A DNA stretch of 64,000 nucleotides, from NCBI RefSeq assembly GCF_921293095.1, contig NC_060246.1, positions 83,945,030-84,009,029 on the forward strand. The letters are read 5' to 3'. This document shows, in pieces, positions 3,221 through 51,600 of this stretch; positions within the stretch are counted from its first letter, which is position 1; each line of letters begins with the position of its first letter. The notes below the pieces were generated by a model that saw only the letters and a list, made by a program, of their open reading frames with translations, was not told the origin of the DNA and did not search any database. This DNA comes from Ischnura elegans. Lineage: Eukaryota; Arthropoda; Insecta; Odonata; Coenagrionidae. The position numbers and the translations under genes are program-made.

Positions 3221-6200
3221 ATGACGAAACGCTCGAGTGATTATACCGTTAACCTGACGGATTGTGAAGTGAGAAGTTGTTGTTGCGATTTTTTTTATCA
3301 GGCGACTAATATCATGAGCTGGTTACCTAAGGATGTTTATACATTGATTTCGTTGGTCAGGGAGAGACCGTACATGTACGATCCGAGGAATATCCTCTAT
3401 AAAAACAAGGGGAAGAGGCTACAGGGGTTGAAGGATATAGCGGAGCAGATGTCCCTTTCAAGGTTAGTGTTTCGTTGGGTCAATTTTATCTAAAATAATT
3501 TTAAGGACCAGAGATCAGTAATTTACGATTTAATTGAAATGCACGACAGTGAAAATTTTTCGCAATTCGGACGTAATGAAGTGTTCATACCACTGTGGTA
3601 ATGAATTACTCATTGTTTTTGGAAATACTTCGTTTCCGTTTGAATAATGATTGGTGATCTCATAGTGATGGTTATGTCGATGGACAATGTTAACTTTTAT
3701 GTTAGTGGTAATGCCCTTTAAAAAGTTGTAGGCGTTTAAATTGAAACTGAGTTCCAAAATACATTACTTCTCAGGCCGAACACGAATGCGGAAGACTGCC
3801 GGAAGAAATGGCATTCCATAAGGACTAACTTCATGTCCGAGAGAAGGAAGGTGTTATCTTCAAAGAAGAGCGGAGCAGGAGTAGATTCCGTAAGTATGAA
3901 AGAGCAAATGTAAATTGATAAATGTTCTGCAGTCATCATTCAGCAATTAACTCTTAATACTGACTTTTCAGGTGTACGTGCCGTCCCTATTTTATTATGA
4001 CGAAATGGGATTCATCGAGGATCACGTAAGCGCGCGTGAAAGTGTTTCCTCCCTCGACGAAGATTCCGAGGTAATTCCTAGCATTTTCAGCAATTAAACC
4101 ATGTTTCAAAGTTTCCTTTTCATTACTATAAAACCATCGGCCGTTGATGACTTGCCCGATTGATTTTTTTGTCAATCGGAATAAACTTCACCCATATTTA
4201 ACCATAAAATGGACAAAATGGAAGGTCCACTAATGAAAAGGGTATATCGCACACAGCACAGTTAATTCATCTTTTGAGAATGGGTATATTAACTAGCAGC
4301 TATCAAGTCGAAAACATTAACAAAACACTCCAATGCTTGGTAACAGGTTTATCTACGTTATACCCGTCCAACACTGGCTTAAAATTTAAAATCGATATGA
4401 AAACATCATGAAGCACTTGAAAACCAATGTCCATTATAACAAAGTGACTAATAGTGTGTGTTTCACTTTACAAATCAAATTTAAACATTGCATTTGCCAA
4501 TCCATTGTATAAGTTGAGTTTGTCGGGTGGTTTGGACAGTCTATGAGGCCTATTCAAAGCATTTGGTTCACATTTTCTATCATAATCCGTTTCTGAAAAG
4601 GATGTTGATAGAAAGGATAACCTTGTCTTGGGTTCACGTCCAAAAATCAATTTGGCAAGAGTCTCATTAGAAGCACAGTGAGGAGTTGTGCAGTATGAAA
4701 ACATACTTGCTCAGTGTGGAACATATAGTTTACCCTGTCTGCCTCGCATCCCCTGAATCAATGCTGCTAGAAGGAACATGAACAATATTTCTAGTTCCTG
4801 TTTGTGGATTAGTAAGGCCTCCATCGTCTCCAGCTGGTGAGGTCGTTTTCTTAACCACAGTCTTTTTCTAAGATGGTTTAATTTTTTTCCTCGCCGCAAA
4901 TCTGTAATATTGCACACACCTTACTTCATTTGAGAAGGAATCAACTGGCATAAGTCAATTCCAATACATAAGCAAAACAATCTGATACTTTCCAACAGGT
5001 TCATCTATTTACAATTTTCATACTTTACAAAAAGTAATTTTTAATTATAAATAAAGTGGGCAGAGAGGACCAAAGCATAGAGTATATTAGTTGGTTACAA
5101 TACAGTTTCATCCAATCGCCATTATTTTCATTGCAGATAACTACAGTGTTAGCTTAGAAAGAAGTAATGGACGACAATATTCAATAATACCTCCTTCTAC
5201 ATGAAGTAATTGTAAATGAAAAGGGGAATTCCTATATGAAATTACATCACAACTAACATATTATTCTTGCCCTGGTCTTGGTTTCCCATCTACATCAACA
5301 AAACAATGGCCACATGCATCATATCCTTCTCATACCTGAAAGACATCGCTTGTTAATTCTATAGTTGTTGTATTTCAGTTTGTTACAGTGAACTCAGCTA
5401 ACAAAATACCCATCCCTCATCAAGTGTTGTTTTTTAATGATTTTATTTCTGTCGCACCACTTTCAGGCATATATTTGTTATTGCTCAGAATGTAAATTAG
5501 TGATAGATCAAAAATTTGCTGTCCATGTGATGCAAATAGAACTCAATTAAACCCTGCTATAACACGTTTGTCATACAACATAGTATTGTCATTGGTTTTT
5601 AATGAATCAGTACAACAGTGACTGGGTGTAACATAAACCAGTTTTTTATGTTTGATATGATTTAGTACGATGCACTACTCCTACAGATATAATTTATATA
5701 ATAAGATAGTAAACTTTGGAGTACTATTTATTTCTTCAATCCCAAATGAGGCTATCTATGATAAAGAGAAAATATAATTTATCCTGAATTTTATGCAAGT
5801 CACATCATTGAAATTAACCAAAAGTGTATTGAAATTTTGCCTACATGGAAGTTGTGATGTTTTTATGCCTTTTGTTGCTTTGTTTCTTTTATTTTCCATC
5901 ATATTGGTGAGAAGGTAAAAATAATTTTTCATCCATAGCGACAATTAAGGTAGGCCAATTTTGTTACAGTTATTGTTAGGGTATATTTTCATTGTTATAC
6001 ATCAATAAGTACAATAGCTACTTTTTAAATTTGAAGAATCAGACAGTACCTGTACATCTATGCAGATTGAGTATTTAAGAAAGTTATGAAATATTAAACC
6101 AAATAGCTTGTCATTTCTGGATGTACTCATAAAGATATGGTGGCACTGGTTCAAGTGCCTTATAAGTACTTCACATACATTTAGAATATATTTGCCACTA

Positions 6201-7117: not shown

Positions 7118-9536
7118 TTAGTGCTGAAAATAGGTTTTAAATTCATCCCTTACTTCAACAGCCAAGTTAGTAGGCCTATTACCCGCCTGAGGAGGCATTA
7201 CAATTAAATTACACCCTTCATCTTGGGCATTCTGCAAATAGCGTGCACCATTCTTAACGCACAAAAAATTATGCAGGGCTACTGCAGCAAGCGTAATGTT
7301 CTCCACCTTATGTGGGCTGAGGTTAATTGTGGTTAAAAACACACGGAATCTATTACTTAGTATGCCAAATGCATTCTCCACTACTCTTCTGGCCCGGGAC
7401 AGTCTATAATTAAAAACTCTTTGTGCCTCTGTCAATCCTCTGTTGGGGTAGGGTTTTAAGATGCGGGTGGACAGAGGGAATGCATCATCAGCAACAAAGA
7501 CAAACGGCACCCTCCTCTGCCTGTTGGGTAGTGGTTGGTCTGGAGGGAAATTGAGGGAATTTGTGGCGATTGCTCTACAAAGAGAACTTTCTCGATACAC
7601 ACCCCCGTCACTAATCCTGCCATTCACCCCTACATCAACATACAGAAATTTGTATTGCGCGTCCACCACAGCCAGTAGCACTATGGAATGACTGCCTTTG
7701 TAATTATAGTAATATGAGCCGTCAACTGCTGGAGGTCGAAATACTATGTGTTTTCCGTCCATGGCACCCAAACACATAGGGAAATCCCACATGGTTTCAA
7801 ATTTCCGGGAGACTTCTTCCCATTGCCGAGGGGACCTTGGAATCTGCAAGAATATAGGAGTTATAAGGTTGAGTTTTCCGGTTTCCTTTGGTTCCCACAA
7901 TTCAATTCAATTTATTAGGTCACCATAAGCATATGAAAAATGTAGATATTGTATTGATATTAATTTTATTTTTCCCTGTTTCACTACTTTCCAGATAATC
8001 TTATATTTATTAGATGATGTTGTTATTAATGAGCTGGTATGCATCTTTTTTGTTAGAGAAATAGCAGTTCTCAAAATTTTACAGTAATTTCTGTAGTATT
8101 TTATTAACCCTGGATCATTAGAATCAATGCAATGCTTATGCAACACTTTTCTATCACAAGAAATAATTATTCCTCTTGTTAACCAAGGCCTATTTCTAAG
8201 TTTACTTTTATTATGCTAGGCATTTTTTTAAGGAGGGAATGCTAAATCATGGTAATAAGTGATGATATTGATAAAGCTGTTAACTATGGTATAAAGATCA
8301 GTGGAGTAATTAATATCCTCCCATGTTTCTTCTGACAATAATGTATTACAATATTGAAGACTATAAGGATCATGTGTACTTTTTCAGAATTTATTTATAA
8401 ATAAATTCTGAATTTAACTTTTTATGGTGTCCATCTTCATATGATAGGGATAAGAGAATTGCTCAGTGATCAGAAAGTCCTGTACAAATAACTTCAGAGG
8501 TCTTTTCATAAGAGTCGTTCTAATAATAAATTTATCAAGACATGAGTCGATCCTTGTTGGATCTTTAATCGTTTCTATCATATCACGAGAGCACAGAATA
8601 GCAAGTAAATCACGTTTAATGTTGGAATTTTCAAGAAATCTATATTAAAATCACCACATATCAAAACTGATTTCTTTTTGCTTTATAAGTAACCTCATGA
8701 CAGTGTCTAATTTATTTAAGAATACATCTTCAAGGCTGTTTGGAGATCTATAGAAAAAATATTACCGTTGGGAAGATAGATTTCCACTACAGAATGCTCA
8801 AAGTTTTTTTCCTCATTTAGAAATGAAGTATGGATTGTGTTTTGGCTTTAATATTATTTCTGACAAGAACTGCTGTACCTCCATTTTGCAATTTGTTCTG
8901 CAATAAAGACTAACAAGAGTATACATAATTCTACAAATACAATGACGAAAACTTACCCGAATGTACTGCCCTTTCAAATTCTGGTAAATACTTCGGCATA
9001 CCTCCGGAATAATTAAGCTGATAGTGCTCTCATGAATCCTCGTCGAGTACATGAGGGAACGGTAACTTTCCCCAGTCGCGAGGAATCGCAATGTCAGGGC
9101 CAATCTGTCGACAAAGGATATTGTGTTTAGCGGGAATACGAAATAAATACACACACGGGTAACAACAATTCACCCTCGATTGGGTAGTAAACTGAATTGA
9201 TAAAAAAACCTCTCACCTTTTCTCGGGAGAAATTGCTTCCCTCATCACAGTATCTTGTCGGCTGATGTCCTGCCTCACTAGATTTAATATCTCGAGGAAT
9301 TGCTCTTCCGTCATCCTCATGAAATTCCTGTACGCATCCCTGTCCTCTGCAGCCAACTCCCTGTGAACCATACTTAGGAGTCCCGATCCTTCGTTTCGTC
9401 TCCGTATCCACTCCCTCGTCCAAATGGCTCTCCTAACTCTTCTCCTCCTACGCCTTTGCATTAAATCCGCAGCCCCGATCAGTAAGCCGATGACTGCAAG
9501 CTCGGCAGCTATCACCCTCGCAACGTCTACATCCAT
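7118..9536 (-). CDS. PIF/Harbinger transposase (DDE_Tnp_4 type), 3 exons
   Basis: Exons are 9217-9536, 8957-9104 and 7118-7843, with GTGAGA/AG and GTAAGT/AG junctions that stay in phase, giving 397 residues. The N-terminal third is basic (a run of arginines near residue 30), followed by the helical region FMRMTEEQFLEILNLV and the conserved SPEKR-LALTLRFLATGESYRSL segment across the first junction. Exon 3 carries the catalytic core: AMDGKH (Asp about 185), GRISDGGVY (Asp about 235) and RRVVENAFGIL (Glu about 312), then AAVALHNFL near the end. All three acidic residues are present. The protein would cut and rejoin the element's ends together with the MADF partner. The ATG at 9536 opens the longest frame. 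Intron 2 is filled by a LINE fragment, so splicing keeps the gene intact. Confidence 0.9.
7900..8910 (-). mobile_element. Non-LTR (LINE) fragment, APE-endonuclease to RT-linker region
   Basis: Minus-strand translation, moving between frames, gives GGTAVLVRNNIK (the start of the second half of an APE endonuclease), YLPNG..., a stretch ending LVNTRGI-like, and then DPGLIKYYRNYCKILRTAIS, typical of the linker before the reverse transcriptase. The fragment lies wholly within intron 2 of the Harbinger transposase, in the same orientation. It has many in-frame stops and frame changes, lacks the N-terminal endonuclease half and the reverse transcriptase core, and is dead. The clade is not determined. 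Confidence 0.7.
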
Positions 9537-17101: not shown

Positions 17102-20100
17102 TCATGATCTTGAAGTTAAACATTCCTTCAGAAGAGTTTTCAATTCTGTTATCTCACGCTTAAGATTATCCAAGTTTGAGCTCGCTGGCATGCCACACTC
17201 AGCTCCTCCATCAGCAGGTTGTTTCTCAGTAAAATACCTTTGTGCTAGCATAGAAATTATTTCAGGATATTCTTCCTTCACATTAGTGGGTTCTTCCCTT
17301 TCCTTTAAAGGAAGAAATTGTCAACAAGATGACAAATCATCTTTCATAGTCAGCTCCAATTTAGATCAATTTACAATCTTAATAAACGTAATACTCACAA
17401 CATAACAACAGTGAGAAAGAGAAAAGCGAGCAGTCCGCCCTTTGCTAGGGCGAACACAGACTAAACACCACTCTCCCATTGAAGACAACCCAGAAGGAGT
17501 TGGAAGAAGATTGAAAGGAGGTGGCAATACTGTTTGTGACAGGTACCCCAAGTAAACCTGCAAAAAAAGTAAATGCTTAGTTTAAGATTAGATATGTATC
17601 TTTCAGAGTGATGCTGTGAATCATCATTTCAAAACCACACTGTATTTCTAAGTCCAAAAGAAGTAATAAAATATTAATGACACTTTGTCAAGCAGATAGT
17701 CAAAGGATTTTTTCTGTGGGCAATTAAGGACTTTAATAAAAACCCATTTACAGAACAGGCCATTTCCAAAATACAATTGATCTATCCTACTTAAAATTTG
17801 AATTTTAAGGACATGCAAACGATTTTAATTGCTATACTCCCATAAGTGGTATTTCTTTATTAAAAAAAATGAAATAAATAAATGGTACTATCGTTTTCCA
17901 TTGAGATTCCAACACTGCAGGGTTTAAAATCTTACTGAAGACAAACTTCCCTCGAAAAATCACAAAACTATGTCATCTATATAAGTTTACAACTTTTAAT
18001 GAGATTAATAATTTTCCCCAAAGAAGTGACAAATTAAGGCAATTGGAGACTTTCCTATATCATTGACCTTACAATTTAGGGCCGAGGAGTACTAGTGAAT
18101 TACAGTAGACCCTCATTAATACGAACAACGATATTACGAAGTCCTCATTATTACAAAGCAATTCGTTGGTCCCGAAGAAAAGACTAATCCAATCTACAGT
18201 AAAAGGAATGTAGTTACAAAATTACAAACGTCAGTCCGGTCCCGGCAGTTACAAAAAGAACTTTGTTGCGAAGTTCCACAAATAAGCAACAGCATTTAGG
18301 AGGATATACGCTACGCTATGTTATAATCATTGCGCTACCTTTAAGTTCTCCTTGTGCATTGTGCCCAAGAGCATCAATTATGATTCTTTCTTCAGTAGGA
18401 GATATTTCAGTATGCACGCAACATCATATAATATGAAGTAAAATCTGATGCTTTCCCGGCGAATATGTTCAAAAAAGGCAATTCGGGCTTCCAGCCGGGT
18501 GGTCTCCCTCCATTCTGCCGACGTTTCGGAACACGAGTCGGGTTACGAACTTTCAGAGATATGAAGGTTCGAAACATTCAAGCGTCCCTGAAATTTCAAA
18601 TTTAGCACCTTTGGAGTTGGCTGATGAGACGCGGTGTGTCATAAAGGAACTCACACTTTGGGCATAACACACTGAACACAGCATAATTTAATCTGTAGAA
18701 GAATCGTTGTGAAGTCGGGAACTGTTCAGCGTTTCGTTTTGTTTCTTCCTTCTTGAGGATAGCGATATTTTTCTGCTCCAGCTGCGTCGCACTCGCAGCT
18801 ACACTACCTCGTCACAATCATGAGTTAACCCACAATTGTAGTGTAGTGTTGCATTCTTAAGGATAACAGCACGTTTTGATGCCTTGCACAGGTTAATAAA
18901 CCTATGAAAAAGGTCTTGTAATGGATTTAGTTCGTATACCGAGGACTTAAAAGTATTCGAGAAGATTTGAACCCTCAATTGCGCCATACTGGATTCCTCT
19001 TCTGATAAAACCAAGTGAATGTTCCCATTTTCATATATTTGCGCGTAATTTAATAGTGTCCCATGCGGAAAAATCCCAGTACTGGGCCAGTATTGGCCCA
19101 GTACTGGGATACTTCCAAAATTGGCAAGAAAAATCCAGTATCGGCCCAGTACTGGGCCGGTTCCGGGCCGGTACTGGGCCGGTTAATGGCCGGTACTGGG
19201 CCGGTTCCGGGCCGTTACTGGGCCGGTTCCGGGCCGTTACTGGGCCAGTTCCGGTCCGTTACTGGGCCGGTTCTGGGCCGTTACTGGGCCGGTACCGGGC
19301 CAGCTCCAAGCGGTACTGGGCTGGTTCCGGCCTAGTGCTATAATCAAATTTGAATAAAATAATCGCATTGAAAAAAAAACATTTTAAAGGTTTATTTCAA
19401 GTCATATAATTCGGTTACATAGAAAGATATATGGTCAAAAAAGATAGTAATTAAGAATTAATATTTCATTAAATAGACGTATTTAAGTTTGCCTTTGCCT
19501 TTTTTCGAATTTCGCACAATCTCGTGTACAATTGCTTCTTGACACAACTGTGATCTTCCACCTTTATATTTCTGGCTCTCGCGTAGTGTTCTGCATAGTC
19601 TGAAAATGAAGGATGGAGAAAGCATAAAAGCATTGAAATATCTTTATCCTCTCCATTAATTTACTATCACTATTGTTTTGACTTTCATTGTTTCATTAGT
19701 GTTTGGATTACTGTGTATGCAATAACCAACGAAACAATAACTAACCTGTAATTATACTCTGTCCAAAGCTTAATCGGCCCCAAGAAAATTATTTAAGACC
19801 TTATAAAAGGCATTTTTTTATACTAAGGCCTTTTAGGTGATTCATCGAAGCACCAGTGATGGCATATGGCCCAGCTATTAATAGGATTATAGTTGTTTTA
19901 AAGAACTTACTTCTAAGGAAGTTTGGTCCAATGGTGTCAGCAACCCACACATTTACAGCTCCAGCTGGAAGAATTTGTTCACAAGGCAAACTGGTATATT
20001 TACGGGAGTGCAATCCTTGATGATTTTCTCCACGGGTCTCCGAGGAGCCTCTCTTCTTTGAGAACGATACCTAGCCATGTTGACACACGCACACCACAAG

Positions 20101-23100
20101 CGAGACTGAACGATCTATCTACACCGGAAGTAGCGACGCTGGCTCGAAAGTGGGAGTGGGATAAGGACCGGAAATTGACGTTACCATAGGGCATTTACTC
20201 TAAAATTGAAAAAAGTGATTTTCCCGTACGCTCTATGGTTATTCTAGAGAGCATACGGGAGTGAAATTTTTCGAAGTCCAGAGAATCCAAGATGGCGCCG
20301 AGCTCAATGACAAAAGACAATGCGCTACGCGCATGGAAATCAAAGAATGATTCAGATGACGTAATGCACTAATCATCAACCTTTAACTTCCTCACTAGAC
20401 CAAACTTCCATGAAAGAAACATGTAAAATAGTATTATTCACTGTAAGATCTTAGTTAAAATTGTTGATAATATTTATTCTGTGAAAACGCAATGAATACA
20501 TTAAAAATGCATATTTATAACTTTTCGTTGAAGCATGTTTTTAAAATTATATGGCAAAAATTGAAGGTTTAATTTCTGTGCATGCATTAATTTCCCAATC
20601 TGGACTGGAGATTCTGGCCCAGTTTTGGCGTATCTGGCCCAGTACTGGTCGGTTCTGGTCCAGTACTGGCCGTTTCTGGTCCAGTACAGGCCGGTTCTAG
20701 TCCATTACTGGTTTATTACCGGCCGGTTCTGGCCCAGTACTGGCGTTTCTGGCCCAGTACCGGTCGGTTCTGGTCCAGTACTGGCCGGTTCTAGTCCATT
20801 ACTGGTTTAATACCGGCCGGTTCTGGCCCAGTACTGGCCGGTTCTTGTCAAGTACTGGCCGGTTCTTGTCAAGGACTAGCCGGTTCTGGTCCAGTACTGG
20901 TTTAACACCGGCCGGTTCTGGCCCAGTACCGGCCGGTTCTGTTCCAGTACTAAATCAATACTGGTCGGTTCTGGCCCAGTACTGGCCGGTTCTGGTCCAG
21001 TAATGAATTAATACTGGCCCAGTACTGGCCGGTTCTGGCCCAGTATTGGCCGGTTCTGGTCCAGTACTGGATTAATACTGACCCAGTATAAATCCAGTAC
21101 TTAACCAGCATGAATCCAGTACTGGACCAGAAAATTTTTCCACATGGGGTATATCATTCATATTAGTCTGAAGCTATTCTGCAGGGTGACTATAAGTACA
21201 GGATATTGAAGAGACAAGAAATTTTGACGAAATTGTTTTTTGTGATGATTCCTAAAAGAAACATTCATACAAACTTCGTTATTATGAACATCCGGTTTTT
21301 CGGTCCCATGAACTTCGTATTAATGATAGTCTACTGCACACATCTCTTTCTACTGAATATATGAAAAAAAATTTAACCATACGTTGAATAAAAGTCTTCA
21401 ATTTTGTAAAACCTAAAGACTTAGTGCATGCAATGAGTTAAAATTCATCAATAATAACTAAATTAATATAAACAGATACTCATAAAAACTTTGTTGGAGC
21501 ATAAAATATACATTATAAAATTGATGGAAATCCTAATAAGAAAGTGGGGTACAAATATAATTCTTTTAAAATGTATTAATATTTTGAATAATTTCCTTTA
21601 TCACATTTAGACATATTTTGTACTTACCTGAGAGCGACCAAAAGTCCATTCTATATCCACATTATCAGCCACTTTTTGGTAAGTATTAGACATAGCAGCA
21701 ATGAGCATATTTAGTATGACTATTACTGACATGACTTCAAACACTGAAATAAAATTACATATTTTACTTACTCTAATTATTAATTCACAGGCATCACAAT
21801 AATTGCTGCAATAACATATTCTTGAGCATGCACAAGCAAGGGCGTACCCAGAATCATAACTAGGGGGGGCAAGCCATGGTCTAGAAGGGGGAAAACTGAG
21901 TTGTGACATTAGTTTATGAGATTATTTCCTTGAAAAAAGTTTTATCTTAGTTACATATCTTGTACTAATACATATCATTTTTGTGGGTTCAAAGAAAATT
22001 TGTTGAATGCTTTCGTTTCAATTCAGTATACTGATTTTGCTTAAAGACTTTTGCGATTTTTGCTTCTAGGGGGGCAGCTGCCCCCCTGCCCCTTGCTGGG
22101 TACACCCATGTGCACAAGGGGAGAGAGCAATAAGTATTATTTACCATCCTATTCCTGGAAATTTAAAAAATATTTTTTTTAAACAGAATTTGATTGAGGT
22201 GAATATCACCATGAAGAATTCTTTTTCTCATTTTCATTTTTCTTTGCTACAAAACATATTTTCCATGACTTAAACAGGTACATTCAAGCATAAGGTAATT
22301 ACTTTGAGCAACAAGTACATATCTATAGCCAGCAGGGCCGGTTTAAGTGGCATGCTAAGTACACAGCCATGTAGGGGGCCAAGAAAAATATAAATAGAAA
22401 ATTGGTTTTTAAGCCCTAAAAATATTGCATTCAATTTACAAGAGCAAGAACATTTTAAGTTCACCCAATTATTTAATTCTCAACAATTACTCTTTAAGTA
22501 TTTTCTATTTATTTAACAATGAATCCTGAGAGAATCCCTACTATGTACCTCTCAGGTTATTTTTGAGGGGGGTGGCGGAATGTTGTTCAATTACACCAGA
22601 AAAATGTCTATAACTGGCTCTGATTGCCAGCTTATATAAGTCTATGACTTCCAAGTGGTAAACCACCAGAAAGTTACCAGAGGTATCAGTTAGATAAAGA
22701 GGGCAGTACCAACAACCATAACACACCCCTTCCTCATCAGCCAAAAATTCCAAGTTCAGTTTTCAATGAGAAAATCATAGTATCCATCATTAAGGCCCGA
22801 AAATAAATATAATCGGTCAAATTTTATGCCCACTCTACGATGATTAAAAGCAAGGTCTATGCTTGTCGTGGGAAAAAATCAGATATAGCCTCAAAATAAA
22901 GAGTGCTTCATAATGAAAATTAGACAATGGACACCAACTAGTAGCATGCATTTAAATAAAGGCTATCTTTTATCAACAAACTTACACCCAAATGCAATAT
23001 ATCCAACAGTCTCCGTGAAAACATGCTTATTTATAACTATTGTACTGCTATCGCCAGACGGTAAATCTTCAATGATTACATCAGCTGACTCAAGAGGAGC

Positions 23101-48693: not shown

Positions 48694-51600
48694 TTATTTA
48701 GTGCGATTAAGAACTAGACCACAGACTGTTAGAAGACCTGAGCGGTATGGTGAAGAGGCCAAGGAGCGTGCTAAACGTGCTGCTTCAGCACAATGTTGCT
48801 TTGCCAAGAAACGTGTCTGGTCGAGGCCATGTGACCGATGCACATAGTCAAATGCCTTCTCCACATCCCCAGGCTCCGAGAAACGACGCATAATCATCGG
48901 ATTCAACTCTGGAAACTAGAATGAGAGGAAAAAATTTTATTATTAATAAAAATATTAGAGGGTAAGTGATTAAATTTGAAGATAGCACAAACAATGCATC
49001 AATTAAAAAAAGAACCTATGTCCTACTTACCAAATTTAGCAGTATTTTTGGTATAAAACAAGGTAAAAAAGTGCATTAGCCGAATATTATGTATTATTCA
49101 TCTCTCATTAACACAGCTAATTCAGACAGTGTGGTAAAATACAAATGAAGAACCAGATATACTTCCATTTTTTTATGACTCCTATTAATAGGGTCATTCA
49201 CTCAGACCCAAAATTGCAATTCAATAAAATAATTCTGTAGATGAAAGGGAATGATAAGTAACAGCAAAAATATCATTCTCATTTAACCTTTTCCTGGTAA
49301 GATTAAAATAAGAAAAGGCAATATCTGCCGCCATTCATATATAAAAGATCTGACTCCTTCAGCTGTTCAGGGAGAACCTTTCAATAAGGAAAATAATTGC
49401 TCTCAAGAGCACAAACAACAACAAACTACTCAAGATGAAACACAGACTTGCAATTTTCCACAAAAATAAAATTTTACTTCGACTCGAGTTTCAATGATAC
49501 TACATACATCATTTTCAAGGTACAACTGAGAGAGGAGAAATGGGGTGGAAGGTCCTCAAGGAGGTGGCTGGAATGCTGGTGGCCTTGAGGACCTTCCACC
49601 CCATTTCTCCTCTCTCAGTTGTAAGGTACAAGATCATTTTCAAGGTGCAACTGAGAGAGGAGAAATGGGGTGGAAGGTCCTCAAGGAGGTGGCTGGAATG
49701 CTGGTGGCCTTGAGGACCTTCCACCCCATTTCTTCATGCAGATCCAAATCGACTATTCCCTAACAAGGGTACATTTGGAAAATTCAAATAAAATTTCTAG
49801 TTTTCTCACTTTAACAAAATAAGGCATCAATAGGAGGCAGAAATGTATCTGACATTTGAATAACTACATATGATTTTGGAACAGGAATGTTTTTTCTCCT
49901 CGTGCAATTTTTATTTGTATGTACCTCGTAGTTAATAAGTGTTGATTAATATTTTACTTATTGATTACTTATTTAAATATAATAACAATTGAATGAAACT
50001 TCAAATGAGATCCATAGTCACAGAGAAAAATGACATCATGTAATATCATAAATTTGTTTAATAAAACTGATGTCCCTTTGCATACCTTCTCACATGCAAA
50101 TAAAACAGGAGCTGTTGCAAGGCCCAACTGCAGGTCAGCACAAGCTGGTTTTCCAAGCTCAGCAGCAGATGAGACAAAATCTAGAAGGTCATCAACTAAC
50201 TGGAAAGCTAAGCCCAAGTTTCGACCATACTGGAAGGCTAGCTCTATCGTGGGCTCATCTGCTCCAGAAAGCATTGCTACCTTTTAATGTAAAATTAAAA
50301 ATGAAATTTCAGTGATTAAAAAAATTAAATGAAATGATAGCATTATCAAGGAAAAATTACTACTTTTCCCCAACATCATTTATCAATGGATTTCAACATT
50401 TATAGTGATGTAAAAGTTGGGTGGTTTCTGGAAAATGATGCAATAAATTGATGCTATAAAATGTACAGCAATTAATATAACATTTAAAAGCCATTCCATA
50501 ATTACAAGAAGGTCTTCCAAAACAATAACTCATCAATGATATAATCAATCAATAATAATCATCTGAATGTTACAGCTCAATTTATATGCTGACATAATTG
50601 TAAGCCAAAATGTGAATCATCCATAAAATATTATGATTTTACTAAAAATAGAGTATTTTATTAAACATAGAGTAGATGCTCATTAGCTCCAAATATATGC
50701 ACTTTCCCTGGAAGTCAGTAGTAGAGGCATAGCATCCACTTCTCCTTCATCTAGTGAACTTTAGCACCACTATCTCTAATTTTAAAAGGAGGATTTATTT
50801 CAAAATCCTGAGGGATTTAACTTCAAAATTATACCAGATATATTGAAGTCTAATTTTTTGCAGAAACTTACTCTGACTTTAAATGTATAACTAATAGCAT
50901 TATTTCAATAACATTTTTTACTTACTGCTTTAACTGAGTTCGCTATTAAACTGGCGGTTTTCCTGTATGTTTTGGTGAGGTAGTGAGCAAATCTTTCATT
51001 TTCAGTCTCCTTTGATCCAAGCTGCATAAACTCACCTTGGACTAAGTCAGTTACAACCTAAAAAGAGAGAAATGGAATAAGCACAAGGGAAGACCAAGAA
51101 ATCAGCAGAAAAACTGAATGGAGATTCGACGAAACAAAAATAAGACACTGAACATACAGAATTAGAGTTTGAGGAATGGTAAAAGAAGACAACAAAAAGG
51201 CCTACGCAACCACATCAAGGTTTCCTCAGACTTCAAAAGTTGCAGGCTTTCATTTAAAATATGTACTCAAATTTGTTCATATGCTCATGAGGACATGGGC
51301 GTACCCAGTGGGGGGGGGGGGGGAGCTGCCCCCCCTCCCCAGAAGCAAAATTAAATGTAGTTCCAAACAAAAATTTTGATCAAATTTTCTTTAAATCCAG
51401 GAAAAGTGATATTGGTATAAAACACATATAAAAATAAAATTAAAATATCTTATTTTCGAGCAAACAATTTTAAAAACTAATAAAGAGCTGTTACAATTTT
51501 CTAGAAGTTTTAGTTTCCTTACCCTATTCTGTGCAACAACTTGAGTGATCATGGCTTGCACCCTCTAGTTTTGATCCTGGGTACGCCCTTGCATGAGGAG

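Follow-up and report, generated by a model that had tools for sequence, protein, structure and literature searches.

The odonate Ischnura elegans hosts a family of dispersed 2-kb DNA elements which are very probably non-autonomous cut-and-paste transposons of the CACTA/EnSpm superfamily, animal "TRC" type. The reference copy resides in the window analysed here, i.e. the whole 64,000-nucleotide stretch at positions 83,945,030 to 84,009,029 of contig NC_060246.1 (assembly GCF_921293095.1), spans window positions 19060-21148 (2,089 bp), and has a GT on either side. The assignment is based on CCC-starting inverted termini and 2-bp target site duplications, both distinctive of TRC-type elements and both found in the family, and on a Transposase_21-type frame, which is carried by a larger relative and is missing in the 2-kb elements themselves. 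Repeated subterminal motifs, a further trait of CACTA/EnSpm elements of the TRC type, are present as well. The element is a new family within a known superfamily, and no new kind of element.

Termini, copies and empty sites

The element is bounded by terminal inverted repeats of 15 bp (CCCATGYGGAAAAAT); inside these lie subterminal arrays built from a near-palindrome of about 11 bp (CCAGTACTGG type), which enclose a core of 1.3 kb. In the window copy, the left GT (19058-19059) precedes the left terminal inverted repeat CCCATGCGGAAAAAT (19060-19074, + strand), which equals the right end at 14 of 15 positions. The left subterminal array (19075-19330, +) is made up of 11/22-bp near-palindromic units, CCGTTACTGG, CCGGTTCYGG and CCAGTACTGG. 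The core common to the aligned copies (19340-20611) is followed by the right subterminal array (20612-21133, +), which has a 21-bp period (10+11), is formed by CCAGTACTGG and CCGGTTCTGG units, and keeps the orientation of the left array. The right terminal inverted repeat, ATTTTTCCACATGGG (21134-21148), reads CCCATGTGGAAAAAT on the - strand, and abuts the second GT (21149-21150). An earlier note on this DNA had reported inverted ends, and these are borne out as the 15-bp termini just described; the genuine terminal inverted repeat is only the outer 15 bp or so. As for the span proposed there, 19060 to 21149, the start is correct, and the end is not: the last base of the element is 21148, and 21149 is part of the duplicated GT.

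Copies were sought in the whole genome (1.72 Gb, 110 contigs). A DNA search yielded 113 matching pieces among the best 40 of 182 candidates, and within the same set at least 15 single matches, window copy included, extend over 1,577 or more genomic bases with 84-100% identity. By a pattern search allowing up to 3 mismatches, 20 left and 22 right ends were detected against 0 control matches, and end sites with altered first bases were found in the genome as well. Two-ended loci are 15 in number: 11 uninterrupted 2-kb copies, three copies hosting insertions (L024, L025 and L035, of which L013, L008 and L016/L018, respectively, are parts), and one 25-kb element. Loci with one end missing, or outside the sequence examined, were left out (L012, L014/L026/L027, L017/L034, L028, L029, L030, L031 with L019 and L020, L032, L033, L037, L038, L039, L040). 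End sites outside the 15 loci include those at 9.49 Mb of contig C4, 114.34 and 114.36 Mb of C8, and 2.06 Mb of C14. All 15 two-ended loci start with CCC and finish with GGG. An exact 2-bp direct duplication flanks 14 of them, while a 3-bp match was found at none, and a 4-bp match at one of the 15; permuted flanks gave 2.1 duplication matches on average, and 9 at most (100,000 permutations).

Empty sites were searched for the 14 loci carrying the duplication, by joining about 75 bp of flank per side, with the 2-bp target retained once, and scoring the best 40 candidates in each search. At nine loci (L002, L006, L010, L011, L025, L003, L007, L035 and the 25-kb element) the joined flanks match element-free sequence across the junction, with a single 2-bp target, best matches being 98-100% identical. 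The match is 100% over all 150 bases for L002, L006 and L025; that of L002 sits in a tandem repeat array near the insertion, and those of the 25-kb element are at most 100 kb away from it. Further copies with clean junctions, which the earlier note had set as the check for a mobile element, are thus available. Since the arrays resemble minisatellites, the structure could have been taken for a local rearrangement of satellite DNA, with no mobile element involved. Many dispersed copies sharing the same ends, accompanied by 2-bp duplications and empty sites, argue for a mobile element instead, and the rearrangement, ruled out by the empty sites, retains a practically negligible probability.

L003 (contig C6) and L004 (contig C3) have exactly the same sequence over 2,066 bp, and differ in both flanks and contig. 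Identity at different sites makes it probable that transposition is recent. Some copies have in turn been targets of insertion. The insertion in L024 contains an open frame of 737 aa (positions 3670-5880 of the locus), presumably hAT-like from its look, and a 2.5-kb or so insertion in L035 (2297-4844) lies near a TTAA.

Orientation of the subterminal arrays

Arrays were called with Tandem Repeats Finder. The 22-bp left array with 11-bp substructure and the 21-bp right array, both anticipated by the earlier note, were found at 19149-19301 and 20612-21070, respectively, and the core in between is free of tandem repeats. Allowing at most 2 mismatches, the CCAGTACTGG 10-mer has 15 sites in the left arm, 29 in the right arm, and one in the core; shuffled arms contain on average 0.16 (left) and 0.24 (right) such sites, with a maximum of 2 (500 shuffles each). 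Sites are mostly spaced by 11 or 22 bp in the left arm, and by 10, 11 or 21 bp in the right arm.

Because the array unit is near-palindromic, the orientation of the arms must be judged from asymmetric units. In the window copy, the left arm has 4 and the right arm 15 asymmetric CGGTTC units, counted on the + strand. The reverse form GAACCG is absent from either arm in all the nine elements compared, window copy included, which were drawn from the 15 two-ended loci. Direct alignment of the arms outscores the inverted one in eight of these nine, the exception being L015 (75 direct, 79 inverted). The arms are therefore direct, and not the same repeat in opposite orientation, as had been proposed. 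The inverted alignment does score 63, while shuffled arms average 18 and never exceed 30 (100 shuffles), an excess due to the near-palindromic nature of the units; some arm-to-arm pairing is accordingly possible.

These data bear directly on the hypothesis of a true foldback element, whose mechanism would involve a giant hairpin formed by pairing of long inverted tandem arrays; the earlier note had likewise recognized a foldback-like layout, and considered a very large hairpin possible. Foldback elements have long inverted repeats built from tandem arrays, and such repeats are lacking here. Large arrays do lie on either side of the core, and the arms each strongly self-fold as single-stranded DNA in their outer parts (141 and 149 bases, z -9.6 and -7.3), but self-folding is accounted for by the near-palindromic unit. 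The co-oriented asymmetric units speak strongly against the foldback layout; the terminal inverted repeat is only 15 bp long, and a Transposase_21-type frame is present in a larger element that shares the ends. We regard a foldback element as highly improbable. Near-palindromic tandem units, as this case illustrates, can mimic inverted arms.

The core and the 25-kb relative

The larger element is 25,128 bp long (C6:79006124-79031251), and has the same termini, like arrays and a TT duplication. Inside lies a stop-to-stop open frame of 846 aa (C6:79012801-79015338), which matches Pfam Transposase_21 with an E value of 1.1e-6 and 28.4 bits, the curated cutoff being 28.6. A 38%-identical homologue of the frame in the same genome reaches 33.4 bits with Transposase_21, above the cutoff; it also shows a weak match, below cutoff, to Plavaka, which we take to be another CACTA-like family. 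The short contigs C13, C14, C16 and C17 host 23 of the 55 transposase matches, many for their size (C13 21, C14 19, C17 10 Mb).

The core of the window copy was formerly described as unique, a description that cannot be kept, as further copies of the element contain it too, and a portion of it shows relatedness to another repeat. Residues 19491-19909 (- strand) match the left interior of the 25-kb element at 84%, 20467-20610 (+) its right interior at 85.5%, and 20343-20434 (+) more weakly, at 73%, the 3' end of its transposase frame. Interior matches on both sides are the pattern expected of an internal-deletion derivative of a relative, and the 2-kb element is probably a deletion derivative. 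The segment 19927-20387 (-) is akin to another genomic repeat: it matches L056 over the whole stretch at 69%, and parts of it match L057-L059 at 70-79%. This second repeat, represented by L056-L059 and by positions 1761-2569 of L036, is dispersed, and combines a promoter-like stretch with a short gene. The piece from L058 starts with MPKYRSVRRWAPRRPVEKIIKDCT, that from L059 finishes with VFGDVQFYVKG. The open pieces of L058 and L059 have no Pfam match, and comparison of the latter with PDB gave nothing meaningful, the one match (E 0.61) being a nanobody. The promoter-like stretch of L036 lies beside gene sequence, in inverted orientation.

Several observations weigh against the view that the family consists of recently mobile deletion derivatives of a CACTA/EnSpm element. 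L009 lacks the 2-bp duplication, and its left end is altered. No empty site was found among the best 40 candidates per search for the window copy, L004, L005, L015 and L024. Gene conversion could in principle also yield identical copies. The Transposase_21 score of the 846-aa frame is 0.2 bits below the curated cutoff. Where the 25-kb element and the 2-kb family were compared, identity reaches only some 73-86%; the former is thus a relative, not the direct parent, and no parent was found. In addition, the segment 19927-20387 is unmatched in the 25-kb element, the weak 92-base stretch at 20343-20434 aside, and matches the other repeat. This favours a composite capture, i.e. two CACTA ends enclosing a segment of an unrelated repeat, over simple internal deletion. 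Composite capture is a serious contender, though we rate it somewhat short of an even chance: interior matches to the 25-kb element occur on both sides, as deletion predicts, and the segment could already have been in an unseen parent.

Whichever way the core was formed, the gene pieces in it look broken, and appear to be remnants. No ATG/GTG/TTG open frame of at least 150 aa exists in 19340-20611. On the - strand, a putative 3'-terminal exon, included in the 84% match to the 25-kb element, lies at about 19480-19601 and has an AATAAA signal (signal and boundaries by eye), and the segment 19927-20387 includes a promoter-like stretch (by eye) and a frame-broken start exon, MARYRSQRR... A CACTA-type element whose core still encodes a functional small protein on the - strand, as an example a truncated regulator, would explain why these parts have been kept, why 16 of the 17 family matches to the first piece have no internal stop, and why the start exon is the least divergent stretch between L001 and L015, with 3 differences in 75 bases (4.0%), a figure resting on few bases, against 6.7% in the middle stretch. 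The last exon differs by 11.5%, and the stretches taken as non-coding by 7.7-15.1%. The start exon continues in one frame in L056, L057 and L058, whereas in the window copy the frame is shifted relative to these relatives, and stops after 41 codons (both by eye). Of the 14 aligned copies, 6 have lost a single base of the putative last exon, L025 has lost 10 bp of it, and L009 has gained 2 bp where this exon begins. When two core pieces are conceptually joined, the resulting 97 aa match no Pfam family. Reading frames and segment-wise divergence make a functional core gene very unlikely.

The 25-kb element carries on its - strand a gene including an exon that looks coiled-coil-like by eye, and a C-terminal exon. 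The coiled-coil-like exon has no Pfam match, and recurs once elsewhere at 99% identity, on C6, some 5 kb away from a further left end. A THAP-domain protein was considered as partner of the arrays, since the 25-kb element has an exon matching Pfam THAP (joined locus L021-L023, 16476-16895). The candidate was dropped because the exon is an abundant nested repeat, with at least 151 genome matches among the best 150 of 484 candidates, many of them at 91-97% identity.

Two features of the window are distinct from the family. A 260-aa open frame at 7118-7900 (-) matches Pfam DDE_Tnp_4 (E 8.9e-32), and marks a separate transposase, presumably Harbinger-like. At 49508-49733, a 125-bp unit with an apparent internal inverted repeat is reiterated 1.8 times at 99%.

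Proposed mechanism and comparison with known systems

In the model proposed, the 2-kb family would derive from a larger element by internal deletion, both ends and pieces of the interior being kept, and part of another repeat would have been acquired, or retained. Larger relatives would supply the transposase, which probably recognizes the 15-bp ends and moves the 2-kb copies in trans. The arrays are, as the earlier note had reasonably suggested for the left one, candidate binding sites for an element-encoded protein: by analogy with TNPA of maize Spm, such a protein could bind the subterminal near-palindromes, and the 21-22-bp spacing, corresponding to about two helical turns, would place candidate sites on one face of the DNA. 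A bolder hypothesis, which we regard as rather unlikely, is that end recognition is of a distinct type, relying on direct, helix-phased arrays of a palindromic 10-11-bp site on both sides, read by an element protein unrelated to plant TNPA. The - strand gene of the 25-kb element is a candidate for such a reader.

Foldback elements share with the family the large repeat arrays around a core, and differ since arrays are direct here, the inverted repeat is 15 bp long, and a relative encodes a CACTA-type transposase. The apparent foldback with minisatellite arms is now identified as a family of DNA transposons that seems to have been active recently, and that has a likely large relative.

Among animal CACTA relatives (TRC), SmTRC1 of Schistosoma mansoni, as described, starts with CCC, carries a Transposase_21 domain, gives rise to shorter deleted copies, and has a tandem-repeat region; 2-bp duplications were reported for 7 of the 14 copies analysed (PMC1636069). 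The I. elegans family shares CCC termini, 2-bp duplications and deleted copies, and Transposase_21 is found here in the larger relative. By that description the two differ in the length of the inverted repeat, 54 bp in SmTRC1 (PMC1636069) and 15 bp here, and in the long arrays of a palindromic 10-11-bp unit that in I. elegans lie beside both ends. Spongebob / EnSpm-4N1_HM of Hydra similarly has CCC termini and a 2-bp duplication, features from which it was assigned to TRC/CACTA; its terminal sequence is different, CCCAGCCAACATTGAC, and the account given of it does not mention comparable arrays (PMC4298943). A limited search of the open-licence literature retrieved no animal CACTA element with long palindromic minisatellite arms, which is weak evidence of absence.

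Plant elements as maize En/Spm and soybean Tgm resemble the family in having short inverted termini and reiterated subterminal motifs, described as cis-determinants bound by TNPA-like proteins, and in including deletion derivatives moved in trans (PMC2613891). They differ, according to the same source (PMC2613891), in having CACTA termini and other motifs, and in the 3-bp duplication of soybean Tgmt*; no TNPA-like protein was identified in the present family. The family described in this work provides a CACTA case outside plants in which subterminal sites are strongly periodic, and is suited to identifying the end-binding protein.

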